Assembly (NCBI GenBank): GCA_040757115.1
Contig: JBFLYA010000148.1
Span: 1-9,274, forward strand
Source: a bacterium
Lineage (GTDB): Bacteria; UBA9089; CG2-30-40-21; SBAY01
Direction of reading: 5' to 3'
Length of the DNA: 9,274 nucleotides
Part shown: one piece after another, positions 1 to 9,039 of the stretch
Numbering within the stretch: the first letter of the stretch is position 1
How the letters are laid out: each line of letters starts with the position of its first letter
Program-made: the position numbers and the translations under genes
Notes under the pieces: generated by a model
Databases searched by the model: none
Seen by the model: only the letters and a program-made list of their open reading frames with translations
Told to the model about the DNA's origin: nothing

Positions 1-103
1 TTTCTTTAGCTGGTTCCCCACCCATAGCTTGTAACACTGTACCTCCCCCAATCACCATACTTAAAACCACTAAAAACCCTAATACTTTTTTTACTTTAAA
101 CAT
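1..103 (-). CDS. Exported protein, N-terminal part only (runs off left edge)
   Basis: Reading leftward from ATG at 103, 34 codons stay open to the window edge. The peptide starts MFKVKKVLGFLVVLSM and continues through a glycine-rich stretch to VLQA-MGGEPAKE. It is a typical Sec signal peptide: lysines at residues 3, 5 and 6, a hydrophobic core at about 8-20, and a likely cleavage site after VLQA. The start is fixed by a strong Shine-Dalgarno AGGAGGT (113-119) nine bases upstream and by a consensus promoter at 144-172. The mature protein lies outside the window, so its function cannot be told. It is codirectional with, and 108 bp downstream of, the truncated lipase-like gene, but has its own promoter. 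It is too short for most gene finders, but all start signals agree. Confidence 0.75.
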   Translation of the reverse strand, partial: MFKVKKVLGFLVVLSMVIGGGTVLQAMGGEPAKE

Positions 104-211: not shown

Positions 212-2017
212 TTACACCTTTATCTGATGAATCAAATTATCATCTGGTATTAATTCATCACCTGAGGTAACTACAAATGAGGTACTTGCTTGACTATCTG
301 CAGGTAATTCTAAGGTAGATGCAGGATATTGGGTGATAGAAAGGCATTTTGATGCCCTAATCAGTTTCATCTCAATATTAGCCGTAAAAGACTTATTCTT
401 TGCCTTGTTAGTGATAGTGATGTAATGAGTATGTGATTCATGTGGCTCTGTAAAATTCTCCCAGGCAGGATGGATAGATACAAAGATAGGTGGCACAATC
501 TCAAAACTCCAGCGATAAGGAGATTGTTTCAAATCATGCCCTGGCTCATTAGCATTATCCTTTGCCTCAATTGAGCAAGAATACTCACCATAATCTAAGT
601 TATTCACTGCTGATGCTTGATGAAAGGTTCCTTGAGGAGTATTCAATACAATAGTTGAATTATCAATCCCGGAGGCATAGCTGTTAACTGGTGGGTCAAA
701 AAGCGTAGCAGAGATATTGACTGTCCAGGGTGTCTCCTCAGCAATAATCACCTCACCATTTGCTGGGGTGGTGGCAGTTACCTCCGGCTCCTCGGTGTCA
801 ATTAAAAAGGAATGGTAGCCTGATATTGGTACTTCAATAGTTTCAATAATATCTTCCTTACAATCAGCACTGGCTATCTTTACCTGCATTTGTGTTTTCT
901 CCTCAAAATAAAGCCTTGCGCTGCCGTCAGTCCCTTTGGGAATATTCAAGATTACAGAGAAGTTCTTACCCGAGCCGGCTAAAGATATTGGATGTGGAGA
1001 AGAAAAAGCACCGTTACCTTTAATAAATAGTGTTGGTGCTGAAGGTAAAGATTCGGATAAGGTAATAGAGATAGATATTGCCCCTTCTCTGACAGGAGAT
1101 TCCCTTGAGATAGTAATTTGTGCTGTGATAGGAGATTTAGAAAACAGCTCTTCTAATATTTGTCTTTTAACCTTAACACTTTTGTATAAGTCAACATGAT
1201 GTGTTGACAGGGCACCAATATCCTCAAGCCTTTTAACTGTCTTTCTCTGCTGATGTAGAAGTCTACCTTTAGCAGAGAGATAAGAAACCACACCATCTCC
1301 ACCCTCAAACAATGGTGGGCCAATCCTATCCTCAGCTAAATTAATATAAGTAATCGTTGGTGGGTCTGAATTTAATTTATTCTGCCAGAAATACTCCATA
1401 AAGGCACTACCTTTTTCCTGCAATTGCTCAGTTCCAACTAAGTTAGGGTCAGGTTTGTTATACTTCTTAGCAATATCTGATTTCCATTTTGAAGAAACTG
1501 GTAAATTTCGGAAGAAGTCAGATATACCACTACCCATCTGCGGTGTCCCCATCATAATAATTTGATTTATGTCATTGCCGTAGCGGGGGATGTTGGAGAT
1601 GGTTATCTTTTTGGGTTCTTTTTCACCAGCAGGAGTATATTCATAATCCATTGTAGGCTGATGTTGATTCCCATACATCATAGTATAAAGCTCAGCTACA
1701 ATACCACCTCTTGAATGAGCAACAATATCAAGTTTAGTTGCTCCTGTTCGTCTCTTAACTTCATCTATTGCTTGTTTAAGCTTTTTAACATCCTCTTGTA
1801 TCAATCCTTGTCCTCTGTTAGGAAAATCACCAAACAAATCAGCTAAGGTAAACACATCAAATCCTGCATTTTGCAATGTCTTCACCATGCATCCATCTTT
1901 AAAACTCTGTGAATCACCATTGAGTCCATGAACTATCAATACAGGATTTTTAGCAAAAGCAGGACTTAACAAAAATAAAGTGCCTACCAGACCTAAAATA
2001 ATGGTTCTTTTAAACAT
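212..2017 (-). CDS. Secreted lipase-like alpha/beta-hydrolase with Ig-like domains (paralogue A, truncated C-terminus)
   Basis: Predicted 601-residue extracytoplasmic esterase/lipase of the EstA/class 2 lipase type. A signal peptide covers 1-22, with cleavage after SPAFA. The hydrolase domain covers about 24-295: oxyanion-loop motif VLIVHG at 26-31, nucleophile elbow AHSRGG with Ser102 (AHSxG as in Bacillus lipases), a GTPQMGS motif at 157-163, probable acid Asp241 in GGDGVV, and probable His273 or His274 in THHVDLY. About 300-400 and 405-510 look like beta-sandwich/Ig-like modules, the second with the typical ending YSCSIEAKDNANEPG. The start has SD AAGGTGAG 8 bases upstream. It lies 35 bp after the LolA-like gene, so the two are probably cotranscribed. 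Compared with paralogue B it lacks everything after residue 599 and ends KV-stop. Substrate is unknown; lipase is inferred from motifs. Confidence 0.88.
   Translation of the reverse strand: MFKRTIILGLVGTLFLLSPAFAKNPVLIVHGLNGDSQSFKDGCMVKTLQNAGFDVFTLADLFGDFPNRGQGLIQEDVKKLKQAIDEVKRRTGATKLDIVAHSRGGIVAELYTMMYGNQHQPTMDYEYTPAGEKEPKKITISNIPRYGNDINQIIMMGTPQMGSGISDFFRNLPVSSKWKSDIAKKYNKPDPNLVGTEQLQEKGSAFMEYFWQNKLNSDPPTITYINLAEDRIGPPLFEGGDGVVSYLSAKGRLLHQQRKTVKRLEDIGALSTHHVDLYKSVKVKRQILEELFSKSPITAQITISRESPVREGAISISITLSESLPSAPTLFIKGNGAFSSPHPISLAGSGKNFSVILNIPKGTDGSARLYFEEKTQMQVKIASADCKEDIIETIEVPISGYHSFLIDTEEPEVTATTPANGEVIIAEETPWTVNISATLFDPPVNSYASGIDNSTIVLNTPQGTFHQASAVNNLDYGEYSCSIEAKDNANEPGHDLKQSPYRWSFEIVPPIFVSIHPAWENFTEPHESHTHYITITNKAKNKSFTANIEMKLIRASKCLSITQYPASTLELPADSQASTSFVVTSGDELIPDDNLIHQIKV
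221..801. repeat. Long direct duplication, copy A (partner 3794-4374)
   Basis: These 581 bases align to 3794-4374 at a constant offset of 3573 with no indels and about 18 mismatches by hand count. They encode residues 405-599 of both lipase-like proteins, which differ at only four positions there (406, 446, 508, 524). Similarity stops abruptly at 220/221 and falls sharply beyond 801. Confidence 0.9.
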
Positions 2018-2052
2018 AATTTACTCACCTTCAAAAGATTAAAAATTTAAGA

Positions 2053-2946
2053 CTAAAACTCAAACTCACTATCTGGAATACCAGTATTTAATTGAATATT
2101 GCTAAGAGTAATTTCTTCTGTTGCTCTTGCTGTTTTAACAAACTTTGTTGGAATCCAAGTATCATTGATAAGTACAAAATTACTGAATTCTCTGGTTGAA
2201 CTTACATTACCACTTTTAATTCCAATTGCTATAATTTTTGTAAATACCCCTTTATTAAAATCCATTGTGAATTCGTATCTTAACCATCCTGGTACAGGAT
2301 AGTTATACTCATCCTCAGGATTACTTGCTTTCGGCACTGCCTCAATCACCCAGGTATCAGGTTGAGGATTATCAATCACCTTCGTATCAAACTTAGTCAT
2401 TATCTCATCCAACCGCCAGTAGAAATCAAGTCTATCTGGGTCTAACATTAAATACCAAGGAAGTTTGTATATCCAATCTTCACCATCTACTTTCCTATAA
2501 TGGGTCTGATTTTTTATAATGGTAGGACTTTCTGGTTCATCATTAAGAATATACTTAAGTTTATCTGGTGGTTTAAATAAAAACTTTAGATTAGCTATAT
2601 GGGTATCTTTAAATAATGGATACCCCCATCCTCCTTCCTTTTTTGTCACACTATACATATCTGCCTTCAGGTCTTGTATCTTCTGGTAATTCGCCTTGAC
2701 CTTATCCAGTAATGCCTGGACAGTAGGCGTGCCGATTTGTTTTGGTCTAAGTGGTAGATTTTTCTTTTTTACCACCTTTTCCTGCTTCGTCTTTTGCTCA
2801 TTAGCCTTTAGCCATGGCCACTGCCATTCTATACCCTGGGCTATAGTGCTACTGCATAGCAAGATACACATCACCCCAATGCAACACATTATCTTTTTAA
2901 TCCTTGTTCCTCTTGAATTTCCCTTTAAACCTTTTAAATTACACAT
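2053..2946 (-). CDS. Exported LolA-like (outer-membrane lipoprotein-sorting-like) protein, unit 3
   Basis: This 297-residue protein has a signal peptide: a basic N-region at about 5-18 (RGTRIKK), a hydrophobic core at about 19-35, and probable cleavage after IAQG. A Trp- and Lys-rich linker follows, then from about 75 a LolA-like fold: helix VQALLDKVKANYQKIQDL, beta strands, a late DTWVIEAVPK strand (about 197-206), DFNKGVFTKI and the WIPT turn. LolA-like proteins bind lipid or lipoprotein acyl chains in a half-barrel; the precise role here is unknown. SD GGAGGT (2957-2962) lies 8 bases before the start, and a consensus promoter is at 3024-3052. The lipase-like gene follows after 35 bp. It shares near-identical blocks with the unit 2 paralogue at residues 20-95, 177-217 and 276-297; the parts between have diverged. 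Confidence 0.8.
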   Translation of the reverse strand: MCNLKGLKGNSRGTRIKKIMCCIGVMCILLCSSTIAQGIEWQWPWLKANEQKTKQEKVVKKKNLPLRPKQIGTPTVQALLDKVKANYQKIQDLKADMYSVTKKEGGWGYPLFKDTHIANLKFLFKPPDKLKYILNDEPESPTIIKNQTHYRKVDGEDWIYKLPWYLMLDPDRLDFYWRLDEIMTKFDTKVIDNPQPDTWVIEAVPKASNPEDEYNYPVPGWLRYEFTMDFNKGVFTKIIAIGIKSGNVSSTREFSNFVLINDTWIPTKFVKTARATEEITLSNIQLNTGIPDSEFEF

Positions 2947-2971
2947 TGTTTTTTACCTCCATATTTTTGAT

Positions 2972-3001
2972 AATTGGTTAAATGGTAACTGGTTAAATAG
3001 T
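2972..3001. repeat. Two tandem 15-bp units in the leader of the unit 3 LolA-like gene
   Basis: AATTGGTTAAATGGT (2972-2986) is followed directly by AACTGGTTAAATAGT (2987-3001), with two mismatches. The pair sits between the predicted transcription start (about 3017) and the Shine-Dalgarno (2957-2962). It could be an operator or simply slippage. Confidence 0.7.
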
Positions 3002-3023
3002 CACCCTTTACCAGGTTTCTTTA

Positions 3024-3052
3024 ATTATAACACATTTTTTGTCTTTTATCAA
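3024..3052 (-). promoter_or_regulatory. Sigma-70-type promoter for the unit 3 LolA-like/lipase pair
   Basis: Minus strand TTGATA (3052-3047), 17-base spacer, perfect TATAAT (3029-3024). The predicted start is near 3017, giving a leader of about 70 bases. An A-rich tract lies upstream (about 3055-3078), as at the other two promoters. Confidence 0.78.
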
Positions 3053-3078
3053 GGTTTAATTTTTCATTTTTTCTTTTT

Positions 3079-3160
3079 GTACACTGATTGCACGGATTAC
3101 ACTGATTTTTTTTATTTTTATACTCCGTGAGAATCTGTGCTATCCGTGAAATCCGTGTAC
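3079..3160. repeat. Interspersed hairpin repeat ('cacggatt' family) overlapping the 3' end of the 816-residue gene
   Basis: The ends form an imperfect inverted repeat: GTACACTGATTGCACGGATT at 3079-3098 against ATCCGTGAAATCCGTGTAC ending at 3160, with a T-rich centre. The same word family (cactgatt, acacggatt, cacggat) recurs inside the 8775-8866 element. It contains the last six codons and the stop of the lipase-like paralogue B. Its folded RNA could also act in 3'-end formation; no classic T-tail terminator is evident. Confidence 0.75.
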
Positions 3161-5590
3161 TTTAGATTCCAAACAGGTTAATATCCCGGGCAAAAACTCA
3201 AATTCATAGCCATATTTCTGTGTAAAACAAACTACCACACCACCTTCCTCAACATATCTCCGTAACCTCCATTCCAATATTTCAGAAGTATCTACACCAC
3301 TTAATCCATAGCTCGGAATAATTAGCACCTTGAAGTCGGATAACTTGCGAGGGATGAGGGACGAGGGATGAGGGATGAAGGACGAAAGAGGAGGGACGAG
3401 GGATGAAAGAGGAAGTGACTTTTGGAGTTCAGACTTTAGCCTTTCATTCGCAGCATTGGGCATTTGGATTTGATTTGATATTTGGAATTTGGATTTTGGA
3501 ATTTGTTTGTAATTTGGAATTTGTGATTTGGAATTTTCCTCAATGGAGGATGGTAACGGTTCAAGGTCACGATCGATAAACCAGACAGGCTCTTTAAACC
3601 GTCCTAAAAGATGTGCTACTCCATCCACAAATCCATTCAAATACACCCCAACCTCTGCCTCAGAATCTATCTTTGCCGGTGTTGGGTATCTTGGGTCTGA
3701 AATATCATAGGATTCATCCGGATGGTCAGTGACTATGTTCTGGCCATTGGCATACTGAATGGCAGATAATTTTAAGCCACGGACAGTTATTATTATCTGA
3801 TGAATCAAATTATCATCCGGTATTAATTCATCACCTGAGGTAACTACAAATGAGGTACTTGCTTGACTATCTGCTGGTAATTCTAAGGTAGAAGCAGGAT
3901 ATTGGGTGATAGAAAGGCATTTTGATGCCCTAATCAGTTTCATCTCAATATTAGCCGTAAAAGACTTATTCTTTGCCTTGTTAGTGATAGTGATGTAATG
4001 AGTATGGGATTCATGTGGGTCTGTAAAATTCTCCCAGGCGGGATGGATAGATACAAAGATAGGTGGGGCAATCTCAAAACTCCAGCGATAAGGAGATTGT
4101 TTCAAATCATGCCCTGGCTCATTAGCATTATCCTTTGCCTCAATTGAGCAAGAATACTCACCATAATCTAAGTTATTCACTGCTGATGCTTGATGAAAGG
4201 TTCCTTGAGGAGTATTCAATACAATAGTTGAATTATCAATCCCGGAGGCATAGCCATTCACTGGTGGGTCAAAAAGAGTAGCAGAGATATTGACCGTCCA
4301 GGGTGTCTCCTCAGCAATAATCACCTCACCATTTGCTGGCGTAGTAGCAGTAACCTCCGGTTCCTCGGTGTCAACCAGGAAATTATACTCACCACTAATT
4401 GGGGCTTGAATAATATCTTGAACTTCCTGACAATTTTCATCGGCTATTGTTACCGGAATTGATGTTGTCTCGTTAATATAAAGTTTGGCATTACCATCGT
4501 CGCCTTTGGAAATAAAGCATTTACCAGAGAAGTTTTTCCCGGAACCAGATAAAGCAATCTCTGGTAGTGGCACTGGGACAAATCCTCCCTTTTGGTAAAT
4601 GAGTGTTGGTGGACATGGTAAGGTCTCAGAAGTAGTTACATAAACATTTATTGCCCCTTCTCTGACAGGAGATTTCCTTGAAATAGAGATGTTAGCTACA
4701 ATAGGAGACTTAGAAAACAGCTCTTCTAATATTTGTCTTTTAACCTTAACATTTTTGTATAAGTCAACATGATGCGTTGCCAGGGCACCCATATCCTCAA
4801 GCCTTTTAACTGTTTTTCTTTGCTGATGTAGTGGGACACCTTTAGCTGAATCAAAAAAAATTACACCATCACCCGGTTTAAACGATGGAGGACCAATCCT
4901 ATCCTCAGCTAAATTAATATAAGTAATCGTTGGTAGGTCTGAATTTAATTTATTCTTCCAGAATAACTCCTCCATAAAATTACTACCTTCAGTCCGCTGC
5001 TGCTCTATTGCTACAGAATACGGGTCAGGACATTTACCTTTCTTATGGATTTCATTAACTATCTCTGGATTTTTATATGAAAAATCAGCCCACTCACTTC
5101 CCATCTGCCCTGTCCCCAGCATAATGATTTGATTGACATCATTGCCGTAGCGGGGGATGTTGGTGATGGTCTTATTTTTTTTAAATTTTTCTTTTTTGGG
5201 TTTTCCAGCAGGATAATACGAATAATCCATCGTAGATTGATATTGATCACCAGACATCATAGTATAAAGTTCAGCTACAATACCACCTCTTGAATGTGCA
5301 ACTATATCTACCTTATCTGCACCAGTAAAATTTTTAATCTCATCTATCTTTTGTTTTAGCGCCTTTACATCTTCTTGTATTAATCCCTGGCCTTTATCAT
5401 CAAAATCAATAGTAAATATCTCTTTTCCCTCATACCCAGCATTCATCAAGGTAGTTATTAAACAACCTTCTTTCCACATTTTTGAATCCGCAAAAGTTCC
5501 ATGAACTAAAAGCACAGGATTCTTCGCCACGGCAGGACTTAACCAGAATAGACTACCTACCAAACCTAAGGCTATAACTCTTTTAATCAT
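3140..5590 (-). CDS. Secreted lipase-like alpha/beta-hydrolase, multidomain (paralogue B)
   Basis: This 816-residue predicted extracytoplasmic esterase/lipase has a signal peptide at 1-22 (cleavage after SPAVA). The hydrolase domain spans about 24-295 with VLLVHG 26-31, AHSRGG with Ser100, Asp241 in GDGVI and His273/His274 in THHVDLY. The GTPxMGS motif of paralogue A is GTGQMGS here (159-165). Ig-like modules follow (about 300-510). Residues 601-680 and 750-802 are absent from paralogue A; 752-790 (KVLIIPS to EEGGVVVCF) resembles the beta-strand/GG core of a glutamine-amidotransferase-like domain, cut short. Residues about 684-747 are low-complexity sequence derived from DNA repeats, and 811-816 plus the stop come from a hairpin repeat. 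SD AGGAGGTGA lies 7 bases upstream; the LolA-like gene precedes it by 45 bp. Substrate unknown. Confidence 0.87.
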   Translation of the reverse strand: MIKRVIALGLVGSLFWLSPAVAKNPVLLVHGTFADSKMWKEGCLITTLMNAGYEGKEIFTIDFDDKGQGLIQEDVKALKQKIDEIKNFTGADKVDIVAHSRGGIVAELYTMMSGDQYQSTMDYSYYPAGKPKKEKFKKNKTITNIPRYGNDVNQIIMLGTGQMGSEWADFSYKNPEIVNEIHKKGKCPDPYSVAIEQQRTEGSNFMEELFWKNKLNSDLPTITYINLAEDRIGPPSFKPGDGVIFFDSAKGVPLHQQRKTVKRLEDMGALATHHVDLYKNVKVKRQILEELFSKSPIVANISISRKSPVREGAINVYVTTSETLPCPPTLIYQKGGFVPVPLPEIALSGSGKNFSGKCFISKGDDGNAKLYINETTSIPVTIADENCQEVQDIIQAPISGEYNFLVDTEEPEVTATTPANGEVIIAEETPWTVNISATLFDPPVNGYASGIDNSTIVLNTPQGTFHQASAVNNLDYGEYSCSIEAKDNANEPGHDLKQSPYRWSFEIAPPIFVSIHPAWENFTDPHESHTHYITITNKAKNKSFTANIEMKLIRASKCLSITQYPASTLELPADSQASTSFVVTSGDELIPDDNLIHQIIITVRGLKLSAIQYANGQNIVTDHPDESYDISDPRYPTPAKIDSEAEVGVYLNGFVDGVAHLLGRFKEPVWFIDRDLEPLPSSIEENSKSQIPNYKQIPKSKFQISNQIQMPNAANERLKSELQKSLPLSSLVPPLSSFIPHPSSLIPRKLSDFKVLIIPSYGLSGVDTSEILEWRLRRYVEEGGVVVCFTQKYGYEFEFLPGILTCLESKVHGFHG
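3350..3412. repeat. Purine-rich degenerate tandem repeat (gggatga/gggacga) inside paralogue B
   Basis: Degenerate 7-base units, mainly gggatga and gggacga, run for about 60 bases. On the coding strand they read as Ser/Leu/Pro/Ile-rich peptide (LSSLVPPLSSFIPHPSSLIP, residues 728-747). The repeat keeps the frame open. No counterpart exists in paralogue A, which ends earlier. Confidence 0.85.
3458..3537. repeat. Degenerate tandem repeat (tttggaat/tttggatt) inside paralogue B
   Basis: Repeating tttggaa, tttggat and tttgtga words span about 80 bases, 45 bases away from the purine-rich repeat. They encode a Ser/Lys/Gln/Ile/Asn-rich stretch at residues 686-712 (SKSQIPNYKQIPKSKF and onward). It is a second, unrelated low-complexity repeat read in frame in the same gene. 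Confidence 0.85.
3794..4374. repeat. Long direct duplication, copy B (partner 221-801)
   Basis: Partner of 221-801 at a constant offset of 3573, encoding residues 405-599 of paralogue B. Here the reading frame continues beyond the block into residues 600-816, so this copy looks like the fuller form. Confidence 0.9.
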
Positions 5591-5635
5591 AATCCACTCA
5601 CCTCCTAAAAACTCTAAATTCTATACTCTAAACCC

Positions 5636-6565
5636 TTACTTGAACTCAAATTCACTATCTGGAATACCAGTATTTAGTTGAATATTACTAAGCGTAATTT
5701 CTTCAGTTCCCTCTCCTATTTTAATTAATGTGGTGGGTATCCAAATATTATTGATTAGTTGAATATTTTTATATTCGGATGCTAAATCTTTATCTCCTCC
5801 AGTTTTTGCATCAAAATCAAAAATTTTTGTAATTACTCCTTTTCCATAATCAATATAAATTTCTAATCCCCACCTTGGTGAAAATGGATAATTGTACTCA
5901 TCCTCAGGATTACTAGCTTTCGGCACTGCCTCAATCACCCAGGTATCAGGTTGAGGATTATCAATCACCTTCGTATCAAACTTAGTAATTATCTCATCCA
6001 ACCGAAAGTAAAATTCAAATAACCTTTGTGGGTCTAATAAAGTATACCATGGTAGTTTATAACTTCCAACAGAAGACTCTTCAGTAATTGGTGCTCCCCA
6101 TTCTCCTATACTTTTACTGTATTTAGTACTATCTTTTACAATTACCGTGAGAACATTTTCGGGTGGTATCCATTTAAGTTTACCAGGTGCTTTAAAGAAA
6201 AACTTTTCATCCTGTGTAATTAAATCACCTACTATGCCTAACCACTTAGCAAATTCAGAATCCCATGTTTTGAAATTCCAATTTGCCTTCAAATCTTGAA
6301 TCTTCTGGTAATTCTCCTTGACCTTATCCAGTAATGCCTGGACAGTCGGCGTGCCGATTTGTTTTGGTCTAAGTGGTAGATTTTTGTTTTTAACCACCTG
6401 TTCCTGCTTAATCTTTTGCTCCTTAGCTTTTAGCCATGGCCACTGCCATTCTATACCCTGGGCTATAGTGCTACTGCCCAGCAAAACACACATCACCCCA
6501 ATGCTACACATTATCTTCTTAATCCTTGTTCCTCTTGAATTTTCCTTTAAACTTCTTTTACCCAT
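5636..6565 (-). CDS. Exported LolA-like (outer-membrane lipoprotein-sorting-like) protein, unit 2
   Basis: This 309-residue paralogue of the unit 3 protein has a signal peptide with basic RGTRIKK (11-17), a core at 18-34 and likely cleavage after AQG (35-37). The mature part opens with WQWPWLK and a charged linker, then the LolA-like region from about 74 (VQALLDKVKENYQKIQDL) through DTWVIEAVPK (197-206), a GKGVITKIFDFD strand pair and a WIPT turn. SD AGGAGGT lies 9 bases before ATG. The 816-residue lipase-like gene follows after 45 bp. No promoter like those at 3024 and 9011 is visible in the 170 bp upstream, which hold a hairpin repeat and a REP-like palindrome, so it may depend on read-through from the propeller gene. 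Segments 96-176 and 218-275 differ strongly from the unit 3 paralogue. Confidence 0.8.
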   Translation of the reverse strand: MGKRSLKENSRGTRIKKIMCSIGVMCVLLGSSTIAQGIEWQWPWLKAKEQKIKQEQVVKNKNLPLRPKQIGTPTVQALLDKVKENYQKIQDLKANWNFKTWDSEFAKWLGIVGDLITQDEKFFFKAPGKLKWIPPENVLTVIVKDSTKYSKSIGEWGAPITEESSVGSYKLPWYTLLDPQRLFEFYFRLDEIITKFDTKVIDNPQPDTWVIEAVPKASNPEDEYNYPFSPRWGLEIYIDYGKGVITKIFDFDAKTGGDKDLASEYKNIQLINNIWIPTTLIKIGEGTEEITLSNIQLNTGIPDSEFEFK

Positions 6566-6598
6566 TTTAAATCTACCTCCTCATTAGTTTAATTTTTT

Positions 6599-6661
6599 AG
6601 TAATCGGATTAGACGGATATACTGGATTTTTTATCTGCTTAATCCGCTAAATCCGATTACT
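6599..6661. repeat. Hairpin repeat ('taatcggatt' family), copy upstream of the unit 2 LolA-like gene
   Basis: AGTAATCGGATT (6599-6610) is perfectly inverted as AATCCGATTACT (6650-6661), and the pairing extends inward through aga/cggat-type words. The related copy at 8934-9007 occupies the same relative place upstream of the unit 1 gene. Confidence 0.85.
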
Positions 6662-6666
6662 AAAAT

Positions 6667-6734
6667 AGGATTAGGGTCAGGCAGTTCCCTTTACATTCCA
6701 CATTTACGGTTTGACCCCAAGAGGAACTAATCCT
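6667..6734. repeat. REP-like nested palindrome between the propeller gene and unit 2
   Basis: Outer arms AGGATTAG (6667-6674) and CTAATCCT (6727-6734) enclose GGGTCA (6674-6679) and TGACCC (6712-6717). The inner words (caggcagttccctttac, ggtttgacccc) resemble REP sequences seen near REP-associated tyrosine transposases, but no transposase gene is in the window. It ends two bases from the stop of the propeller gene and occupies the place where unit 1 has its promoter. Confidence 0.6.
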
Positions 6735-6735
6735 C

Positions 6736-8331
6736 TCAAGGCATCCAGTTAATTAATTTACCATCTTTCTTTGGCTTAAATATCAACTTTTTATTTTTAC
6801 CATTGGAATCCATTACCCATATCCTGTGTTGTGTTCCAAATAGCCAATGCATCTCTTTCCAAAATGCAATTTTCGAACTATCAGGAGACCAGACATATAG
6901 CTGTTTTAAAATATTAGAAGAGTAAACATCCCCCTTTTCTGTAAGAGACTTTTGATTTTTACCATCACTATCCATTATCCATATATCGTTATTATTTTTA
7001 AAAATAATTTTATTTCCATCAGGAGACCAAATCGGTTTTGAGCCTATCGTTGACAACTGAATTTCTTTCTCGGTCATAATATCTACTTTCCATATTCCAT
7101 TGCTGACATAAACAATTTTTTTACTATCAGGTGCCCACGCAGGTAATTCTTTATTAGCCCATATAGTATGTGAAGTTAGTTGTTTTCTATTCGTTCCATC
7201 TACATTTATAACTCCTAATGTATAAAGAGTAGGATAATCTTTAAGTGTTAAAAAAACAACCTTTTGCCCATCTGGTGAGAAGATGGGATATTCCTCACTA
7301 ATTTCATCTGTATTACTTAACCATTTTAGTTCATTAGTAAGCAAATTTATTAAACAGATATCAGAATTATCCTGGCAATTTATCATCCCATCATTATTTG
7401 TATCTTTTCTTTTAGAAGAAAAGACGAGTAAAATTTCATCATTACTCCATGCAGGATCTTCAGCATAATGAGAAGATACTACCCTTTTATTGTTACCATC
7501 AAACTCCATTATCCATAATCGTAAATCAACAGAAAGATTTGCAAAACAACCTGTTCTTTCTAATTCTTTTTCTTTAAAAGTTATGAAAGATACATATTTC
7601 CCTGTAGGAGAGAACTTAAAACCGAATTCGTAACCATAAGAAAAAGATGGAGCGGTTGATAAAAGTTTGGGTGTTTTCTTGTAATGAGTTAGCATGTATA
7701 ATTTTTTATCCACTGAAAAAACAAGATTTCCAAAAGGGAGTTTTCTCTGTAATTCAAACAAATGGGGTTTATCAAGCAAATCCCATTCAAAATAGAGTAA
7801 ACTTCCTCCTCCAGTAACTAATGCAAGGGCAAAAATTATCCACATCCCTAATTTTACTACTCGCTCATTTAGCCATTTAACTATATTTCTACTTTGGATA
7901 ATACCCCATATTAGTCCACAAAATGCTGAAATTGGAGTAATGAACAAAATTAGGAATACATAACCTATTCCTGCCAGCCCTTCAGGTTTTCCAAAAGTCA
8001 TGTTACCTATTAAAATTGCTACCAATATGCCAACTATCCCAAAGAGACCTATCCATCCAATAAGAACCCCTAAACATATTATTGGTGCTATTAGTGCTAC
8101 CCACTTACTTTTTAATTCTTCCTTAATATTTTCTCCCTTCCATATAAAATATATCCAGCTAAAGATTGCCATCCCTATAGAAAATATTACTATCGTTGCT
8201 AAAATTACATTCACTACTTTATTTTGGAAAGGGATATCCTTTAAAAATGAGGATAGAAATATAGGATAAAGACATATTTCAATAATTATCCCTACTATTC
8301 CTCCGCATAAGATAAAATGTAAAAACTTCAT
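6736..8331 (-). CDS. Membrane-anchored PD40/TolB-like beta-propeller protein
   Basis: This 531-residue protein has two parts. Residues 1-183 contain about five hydrophobic segments (roughly 3-28, 38-64, 78-110, 119-146, 160-181), predicting a multi-spanning membrane domain I do not recognise. Residues about 200-531 form a WD40-like/TolB-type propeller with PD40 motifs: FSPTGKYVSF 240-249, a degenerate AWSNDEILLVF 294-304, FSPDGQKVVF 351-360, WAPDSKKIVY 399-408, WSPDGNKIIF 435-444 and WSPDSSKIAF 481-490, alternating with VDG/DSDGKN turns. Residues 310-321 match an EF-hand/dockerin calcium loop (Asp310, Asn312, Asp314, Gly315, Ile317, Asp321). Such propellers usually bind proteins or carbohydrates; no catalytic motif is visible. 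SD GGAAGG lies about 8 bases upstream. It follows the truncated LolA-like gene by 44 bp, in the place of the lipase gene. Confidence 0.82.
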   Translation of the reverse strand: MKFLHFILCGGIVGIIIEICLYPIFLSSFLKDIPFQNKVVNVILATIVIFSIGMAIFSWIYFIWKGENIKEELKSKWVALIAPIICLGVLIGWIGLFGIVGILVAILIGNMTFGKPEGLAGIGYVFLILFITPISAFCGLIWGIIQSRNIVKWLNERVVKLGMWIIFALALVTGGGSLLYFEWDLLDKPHLFELQRKLPFGNLVFSVDKKLYMLTHYKKTPKLLSTAPSFSYGYEFGFKFSPTGKYVSFITFKEKELERTGCFANLSVDLRLWIMEFDGNNKRVVSSHYAEDPAWSNDEILLVFSSKRKDTNNDGMINCQDNSDICLINLLTNELKWLSNTDEISEEYPIFSPDGQKVVFLTLKDYPTLYTLGVINVDGTNRKQLTSHTIWANKELPAWAPDSKKIVYVSNGIWKVDIMTEKEIQLSTIGSKPIWSPDGNKIIFKNNNDIWIMDSDGKNQKSLTEKGDVYSSNILKQLYVWSPDSSKIAFWKEMHWLFGTQHRIWVMDSNGKNKKLIFKPKKDGKLINWMP

Positions 8332-8375
8332 ATTTTTAACCTTCCTTGATTAAAACTTCATATTGGAAAATTTAA

Positions 8376-8681
8376 TTACAAAACTTCTCTTTTTATCTCT
8401 GCCGTTAGGTCTTGTATCTTCTGGTAATTCTCCTTGACTTTATCCAGCAATGCCTGAACAGTCGGTGTGCCGATTTGTTTTGGTCTAAGTGGTAGATTTT
8501 TCTTTTTAACCACTTTTTCTTGCTTAGTCTTTTGCTCCTTAGCTTTTAGCCATGGCCACTGCCATTCTATACCCTGGGCTATAGTGCTACTGCCCAGCAA
8601 GACACACATCACCCCAATGCCACACATTATCTTCTTAATCCTTGTTCCTCTTGAATTTTTCTTTAAACTTCTTTTACCCAT
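8376..8681 (-). CDS. Truncated LolA-like protein, N-terminal fragment (probable gene remnant), unit 1
   Basis: The 101-residue reading frame is nearly identical to the first 93 residues of the unit 2 LolA-like protein: same MGKRSLK start, RGTRIKKIMC signal peptide with cleavage near IAQG, WQWPWLK linker and the VQALLDKVKENYQKIQDL helix. Two residues after that helix's DL it leaves the homology and ends AEIKREVL-stop, at the first predicted beta strand, so it cannot form the LolA-like half-barrel. The start and SD (AGGAGGT, 9 bases) are intact, and a promoter stands at 9011-9039. The propeller gene begins 44 bp on. It may be a broken copy left by replacement of the 3' part of the cassette, or a small exported peptide still made because the promoter is needed for the propeller gene. 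Confidence 0.7.
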   Translation of the reverse strand: MGKRSLKKNSRGTRIKKIMCGIGVMCVLLGSSTIAQGIEWQWPWLKAKEQKTKQEKVVKKKNLPLRPKQIGTPTVQALLDKVKENYQKIQDLTAEIKREVL

Positions 8682-8711
8682 TTTAAATCTACCTCCTCAT
8701 TAGTTTAATTT

Positions 8712-8922
8712 GTAACCGTTCAGGTAATCCTTTACCGCAGAGACGCAGAGGAACAGAGAAGACATAGAAATAAAGTAACTATTCAGCCACTGATTAACAC
8801 GGATTAGCACGGATAAAAAAATAAAATCAGTGTTTCATCTGTGTCCATCTGTGACTGAATAGTTACCAATAAATTTTAATTTTTTCTCTGCGTCTCTGTG
8901 GCATCTTGCGGTGAACAGTTAC
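8712..8922. mobile_element. Non-autonomous IS66-type miniature element with 8-bp target duplication
   Basis: The 211-bp element starts GTAACCGTTCA (8712-8722) and ends TGAACAGTTAC (8912-8922), terminal inverted repeats with one mismatch. It is flanked by TTTAATTT at 8704-8711 and 8923-8930. The homologous site upstream of the unit 2 gene (6588-6595) has one TTTAATTT and no insert, with matching sequence on both sides, so the insertion boundaries are seen directly. GTAA-type ends and an 8-bp duplication fit the IS66 family; family assignment is inference. Inside, CCGCAGAGACGCAGAG (8735-8750) pairs with CTCTGCGTCTCTGTGG (8886-8901), and a further inverted-repeat element is nested within. There is no coding capacity. 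Confidence 0.75.
8775..8866. repeat. Inner inverted-repeat element nested in the 8712-8922 insertion
   Basis: GTAACTATTCAG (8775-8786) and CTGAATAGTTAC (8855-8866) are a perfect 12-bp inverted pair resembling the outer ends (GTAACYGTTCA). Flanks aaataaa and caataaa match at six of seven bases, a possible decayed target duplication. Its interior carries CACTGATT/AATCAGTG arms and 'acacggatt' words as at 3079-3160. Confidence 0.75.
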
Positions 8923-8933
8923 TTTAATTTTTT

Positions 8934-9007
8934 AGTAATCGGATTGAGCGGATTAATCGGATTTCTTTTCTGTTTTTTATCTGCTCAATCCGCTAAATCC
9001 GCTTACT
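8934..9007. repeat. Hairpin repeat ('taatcggatt' family), copy at the unit 1 promoter
   Basis: AGTAATCGGATT (8934-8945) opposes AATCCGCTTACT (8996-9007) with one mismatch, and inner gagcggatt/tgctcaatccgc words extend the stem. It begins four bases downstream of the -10 box, so the transcript from 9011-9039 would start within it and carry the hairpin at its 5' end. It is related to 6599-6661. Confidence 0.82.
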
Positions 9008-9010
9008 AAT

Positions 9011-9039
9011 AATATACCCTAAAAATTTCAATCTGTCAA
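9011..9039 (-). promoter_or_regulatory. Sigma-70-type promoter for unit 1
   Basis: Minus strand TTGACA (9039-9034), 17-base spacer, TATATT (9016-9011). The predicted start is near 9004, inside the adjacent hairpin repeat. The leader to the first gene would be about 320 bases because of the 211-bp insertion. An A-rich tract lies upstream, as at the two other promoters. Confidence 0.75.

Follow-up and report, generated by a model that had tools for sequence, protein, structure and literature searches.

A candidate extracytoplasmic module of LolA-like proteins and secreted lipase-type hydrolases in Candidatus Desantisbacteria and other poorly known phyla

Background

LolA-fold proteins are widespread, and most of them have no assigned role. 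LolA proper carries lipoproteins from LolCDE to LolB; the hydrolase genes found next to the LolA-like genes considered here are unlike the context expected for LolA proper. Lipid binding is seen in many characterised members of the fold, which has non-lipid roles too (PMC6363788). The eukaryotic LolA-fold protein EPDR1 has been proposed to be a lipid activator or transporter serving lipid breakdown (PMC6363788). The points of likeness are the LolA fold and membrane lipid interaction; however, EPDR1 is a lysosomal dimer of animals and has no gene dedicated to it as a partner.

In Clostridioides difficile, an extracytoplasmic hydrolase, CwlD, has a dedicated partner in the LolA-fold protein GerS (PMC8496864). 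However, CwlD is a zinc amidase acting on peptidoglycan, whereas the enzyme described here is a lipase-type serine hydrolase, occurring in a tandem-amplified pair and in fusions; it matches lipase-type hydrolases and not the amidase_3 family. Family I lipases and Lif provide another example of a secreted lipase encoded together with a dedicated partner gene. Lif, however, is an unrelated membrane-anchored foldase, whereas the present partner is LolA-like and encoded upstream; no Lif-family foldase was found beside the lipase, the partner matching LolA families only. Finally, operons with YfiM-Griddle lipocones and a LolA-like chaperone sometimes encode a patatin-like lipase (PMC12419801). Thus a LolA-like protein and a lipase can co-occur in an outer-membrane operon, but the DNA analysed here (the window, 9.3 kb) contains no lipocone, POTRA or OMP gene, and its lipase is an alpha/beta hydrolase, not a patatin.

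No description of the LolA/lipase pairing, or of LolA, a PD40 propeller and a lipase together, was found in the literature searched, most subscription journals lying outside that search. This agrees with the sequence-only reading, which had recognised no described system in the pairing. The component families are already known; the conserved pairing, the fusion, the propeller-containing form and the mosaic copies are not described in the literature searched.

Results

Gene order and copies

The window is the entire contig C148 of a genome of 4.3 Mb in 462 contigs, belonging to the Candidatus Desantisbacteria group. The same order holds Candidatus Desantisbacteria bacterium CG2_30_40_21, and contig C102 of genome G007 is MNYI01000096 base for base. 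The genes of the array lie on the minus strand and are given in 5' to 3' order, followed by the other features.

8376..8681, minus strand: truncated LolA-like copy of 101 aa, limited to the N-terminal part; 300 nt are 94% identical in DNA with copy a
6736..8331, minus strand: PD40 (TolB-like) beta-propeller protein, 531 aa, about six N-terminal hydrophobic segments
5636..6565, minus strand: LolA-like copy a (309 aa) with its own ribosome-binding site; the hydrophobic N-terminus is an export signal or anchor
3140..5590, minus strand: hydrolase copy a (816 aa, short at the C-terminus), comprising a signal peptide, an alpha/beta hydrolase of lipase type and an Ig-like region
2053..2946, minus strand: LolA-like copy b, 297 aa
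212..2017, minus strand: hydrolase copy b, 601 aa, N-terminal architecture as in copy a, stops before the region that continues in copy a
3024..3052, minus strand: promoter-like site 5' of LolA-like copy b, 11/12, TG before the second hexamer, consensus match only
6592..6667, no strand: dispersed palindromic repeat just 5' of LolA-like copy a
8927..9014, no strand: second copy of the dispersed palindromic repeat, 5' of the truncated LolA-like gene

The open reading frames, their order and strand agree with the layout proposed in the sequence-only reading, that is, two complete pairs and a truncated LolA-like gene with a propeller, head to tail on one strand. The partners had been placed 35-45 bp apart, and the gaps measured are 45 nt (pair a) and 35 nt (pair b). 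Duplication is confirmed by direct repeats, far beyond chance (300-nt repeats with 81-97% identity, and shorter ones). The window genes have purine-rich ribosome-binding sites, and in each pair both proteins have a hydrophobic segment at the N-terminus. A check for further copies outside the window yielded two more LolA-like/hydrolase pairs, forming a second tandem array on contig C41 of the same genome.

In one pair of C41 (L016:7429-8148) the hydrolase is only 239 aa long and ends ahead of the catalytic Asp and His, and the LolA-like gene 5' of it is intact. Two proteins with near-identical Kelch-like repeats, a full-length one and a short one, are also encoded on the contig of the second array (L015:3436-5607 and 8837-9583).

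The dispersed palindromic repeat has 37 matches genome-wide. Of the five window-type LolA-like copies in the genome, three have it immediately 5' of the gene, the third site being G000 C41:18393-18432, and it may aid amplification of the cassette.

At the left contig end another gene starts on the minus strand (window positions 1-103), and its first 34 aa match a HEAT-repeat protein that is also encoded downstream of the pair on contig C277 of genome G001 (30 aa with 83% identity). On contig C166 of genome G002, HEAT-repeat genes are found upstream of the pair.

The hydrolase

Both window hydrolases exceed the cut-off of the Pfam family Lipase_2 (42.1 and 27.3 bits against 20.3), and solved lipases were matched by profile comparison. 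Only the core of the predicted structure is usable; the modelled core resembles Bacillus LipA-type lipases. When relatives are included, matches to Lipase_2, PGAP1 and palmitoyl-thioesterase are observed, and a second group of hydrolases matches family I lipases, e.g. 1cvl/2es4. The candidate catalytic triad is S100, D241 and H274 (numbering of hydrolase copy a). The serine is present in 12/12 copies, the histidine in 11/11 and the aspartate in 10/11 complete copies; one copy has no catalytic Asp, and another is truncated before Asp and His. The Ser/Asp/His lipase triad postulated at the outset is thus conserved in the complete copies, one Asp excepted. The window product is predicted to be a secreted lipase-type alpha/beta hydrolase acting on lipid esters.

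In several relatives, the hydrolase forms the N-terminal domain of a very long protein (>3300 aa in G001, 2150 aa in G002), in which it is followed by MG2 and other domains. The 601- and 816-aa window hydrolases are short forms of these long proteins.

Very long secreted proteins with MG2 (alpha-2-macroglobulin-like) domains are encoded at L059:1-9912, L062:1026-10823 and L019:2841-8543. Two of them have the N-terminal hydrolase, and the third has its own signal peptide and only the common later part. At window positions 3334-3540, the reading frame of hydrolase copy a contains low-complexity direct repeats of the GAGGGATGAGGGACGAGG and ATTTGGAATTTGG types, encoding a repeat-rich stretch, an apparent in-frame insertion in this copy.

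The LolA-like protein

Taken alone, the window LolA-like proteins fall below the cut-off of Pfam LolA_like (PF17131), with 14 and 16 bits against 30, and the profile of the window-type proteins matched no LolA structure in the PDB, so that a wider profile was needed. When a profile is built from relatives together with one window copy, it matches the LolA-superfamily structures 3bk5, 3buu and 4z48 (E 2e-4 to 7e-4), and comparison of 12 window-type proteins with a profile of 14 relatives gives 99.9% probability. There are relatives above the cut-offs of PF17131 or PF03548. The identification as LolA-like, made originally from the window, therefore stands through profiles of relatives, but not on the window proteins alone, which miss the Pfam cut-off. 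Members of the LolA superfamily is what these proteins appear to be, an assignment that is weak from the window proteins by themselves and holds via their relatives. The predicted model, with mean pLDDT 36, is too poor for a half-barrel fold or a hydrophobic cavity to be read.

The N-termini of LolA-like proteins are of two unrelated types, one in the window genes and the other in L026:709-1581, L062:10838-11740 and L063:752-1693. In G002 and G007, the N-terminus resembles the signal peptide of the HEAT-repeat protein adjoining the window, which suggests exchange of export signals.

Conservation of the pairing

Close relatives were searched in 61 genomes by LolA similarity alone, and 12 full-length window-type LolA-like proteins were found in four genomes of the same order. 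All 12 genes lie directly upstream of a window-type hydrolase gene on the same strand, at a distance of 24-55 nt. A selection of loci by their neighbours was set aside as an explanation, as the loci were found by LolA similarity only; chance adjacency was set aside as well.

Weaker LolA matches revealed a second arrangement, consisting of a LolA-like gene, a PD40 propeller gene and a gene for a PGAP1-like secreted hydrolase. A profile was then run against 386 genomes and four small phyla, and the neighbouring genes were read with profiles. In this wider LolA clade the association recurs in three further phylum-level groups, often with a PD40 propeller between the partners. Fusion to the hydrolase, or a hydrolase gene within three genes downstream, is found in 26 of the 31 loci with readable neighbours, namely the 12 window-type loci and L017, L018, L083, L084, L085, L086, L088, L089, L152, L153, L155, L156, L215 and L216. 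Three loci have the propeller only (L087, L154 and L217, the latter two reaching the contig end), and L160 and L219 have neither hydrolase nor propeller in view; L151 and L218, cut by contig ends, were left out of the tally. Some of the tallied hydrolases were in the training set of the hydrolase profile; independently of this profile, PGAP1-type matches were obtained with Pfam for L017, L018, L086, L088, L089, L155, L156 and L216. Ordinary PF17131 LolA_like genes belong to the same superfamily, but lie beside large permease-sized ORFs, and none of the 20 such control loci from related genomes has a hydrolase or propeller neighbour. Adjacency in other genomes, which had been set as a test of the pairing, is thus seen at 12/12 window-type loci and 14/19 readable loci of the wider clade, against 0/20 controls. 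A scan of genome contigs gave three loci, all from genomes already in the sample.

The propeller had been taken for part of a mere derivative of the pair. This view was not upheld, as relatives repeatedly hold a propeller gene between the LolA-like gene and the hydrolase gene.

A complete natural fusion of 1109 aa is encoded on contig C216 of the same genome, with an N-terminal hydrolase and a C-terminal LolA_like domain above the cut-off. Additional copies of the fusion are probably represented by fragments at contig ends, which occur in both genomes of the genus.

In the phylogenetic tree, the hydrolase-associated LolA-like proteins group together, apart from the ordinary ones, the main split having a support of 100. 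The association label changes 4 times on the tree, compared to 20.6 times in shuffles, a contrast that is inflated by near-copies.

Selection and mosaic copies

The dN/dS ratio is below 1 in every segment of both proteins where it could be computed; as a rule, the lowest values belong to the catalytic N-terminal part of the hydrolase. Both the LolA-like protein and the hydrolase are under purifying selection.

The copies have a mosaic structure, blocks at 95-100% DNA identity alternating with others near 50-65%. Such blocks are found even across genera. Over LolA residues 229-290 the difference between the copies G1_C373 and G2_C166 is 1%, whereas the flanking DNA has about 60-70% identity, and the first part of the G1_C373 protein matches G1_C366 instead of G2_C166. 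The partner matched at the informative columns changes in a single run of 33 (permutation p 1e-4); a like switch is seen in two other triplets. The copies thus appear to be products of recombination, with blocks shared even between genera; chimeric assembly of short reads could mimic this pattern inside one sample, but less easily across separate genomes.

LolA residues 95-180 track the middle region of the hydrolase (Mantel r 0.40, p 0.011, many comparisons having been made), whereas the intervening block 229-290 shows no such tracking (r 0.11, p 0.18). Paired specificity would account for this, as would duplication of the pairs as units. Co-tracking of the variable blocks as a proof of contact was set aside, because the pairs duplicate as units.

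Discussion

Functional coupling of the LolA-like protein and the hydrolase is likely because of their tight linkage, conserved order, fusion and joint constraint. The claim of the sequence-only reading that the two proteins work together is supported by the conserved adjacency and by the natural fusion.

As to the form of this coupling, we tentatively favour, at slightly less than even confidence, a two-protein extracytoplasmic hydrolase system in which the LolA-fold partner deals with the lipid moiety of substrate or product. The hydrolase would leave the cytoplasm via its signal peptide and would act through a lipase-type active site. The LolA-fold partner would also be exported, perhaps remaining anchored by the N-terminal hydrophobic segment, and would handle the hydrophobic part of the substrate, either presenting a lipid or an acylated molecule to the enzyme or taking up the released chain. 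In related modules the beta-propeller probably serves as a membrane scaffold. That the substrate is a lipid or an ester of an acyl chain, that the LolA-like protein binds it and captures the chain, as in the example given by the sequence-only reading, and the direction of transfer are what the protein families would suggest. This explanation is favoured by the conserved pairing and the fusion, the lipase-type matches and core fold, the link to the LolA superfamily, dN/dS below 1 and the lipid binding of many LolA-fold proteins. It is weakened by the scores of the window LolA-like proteins below the Pfam cut-off, the non-lipid roles of the fold, the hydrolase copies with an incomplete triad and the two clade loci with neither hydrolase nor propeller in view.

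The main rival, possible if rather doubtful, is that the hydrolase is activated, or helped to fold, by protein-protein contact with the LolA-like protein as its dedicated partner, in the manner of GerS with CwlD or of Lif with family I lipases, lipid binding being secondary or lost. GerS, with its LolA-like fold, activates its enzyme by binding outside the active site (PMC8496864). Family I lipases, to which the second group of hydrolases has matches, in some cases depend on a foldase encoded next to them (PMC3352829, PMC7046727). The one-to-one pairing and the fusion are equally compatible with such a role. On the other hand, the window hydrolases are closest to LipA-type lipases, and these, to our knowledge, need no foldase. 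Moreover, the partner gene is upstream and its product does not match Lif, and a stand-alone folding helper need not stay attached in a fusion.

Paired genes that are amplified in tandem, highly variable and recombined block-wise between copies and genera might also be read as a toxin and its immunity protein. The hydrolase would then attack the membranes of rivals or kin, the LolA-like protein would protect the producer, and the mosaics would reflect an arms race; the tracking of the hydrolase middle region by LolA block 95-180, and not by the intervening block, is what such a race could leave. However, co-duplication alone accounts for the co-tracking, and dN/dS is below 1 everywhere computed. 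The two parts can be fused in one protein, and the hydrolase is N-terminal, behind a signal peptide, rather than a C-terminal payload. The genes do not follow the layout of polymorphic toxins, with an exchangeable C-terminal toxin domain and a separate immunity gene, and a search of a defence library gave no match. We set this explanation aside as improbable, given the fusion, the N-terminal hydrolase and the low dN/dS.

It is very improbable that the two genes are functionally unlinked neighbours, amplified together by repeats and with several copies decaying: the palindromic repeats 5' of three of five copies and the truncation of one LolA-like and one hydrolase copy are in line with this, but the association is kept in four phylum-level groups between very diverged proteins and in differing gene order, a fusion exists, the controls have no such association, and purifying selection acts on both proteins.

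Conclusions

A broader and still more tentative proposal is that we see an extracytoplasmic module of several poorly known phyla, composed of a distinct LolA clade and a secreted serine hydrolase, with the propeller as a frequent third part, and that the pairs may have diversified block-wise across copies and genera into enzyme-carrier pairs differing in lipid specificity. The pairing and the natural fusion with a lipase-type enzyme provide a concrete, testable partner for one LolA clade. Coupling would carry the GerS-CwlD precedent over to serine hydrolases. If the pairs do differ in specificity, the mosaics would show a way in which bacteria diversify lipid enzymes and their carriers jointly.
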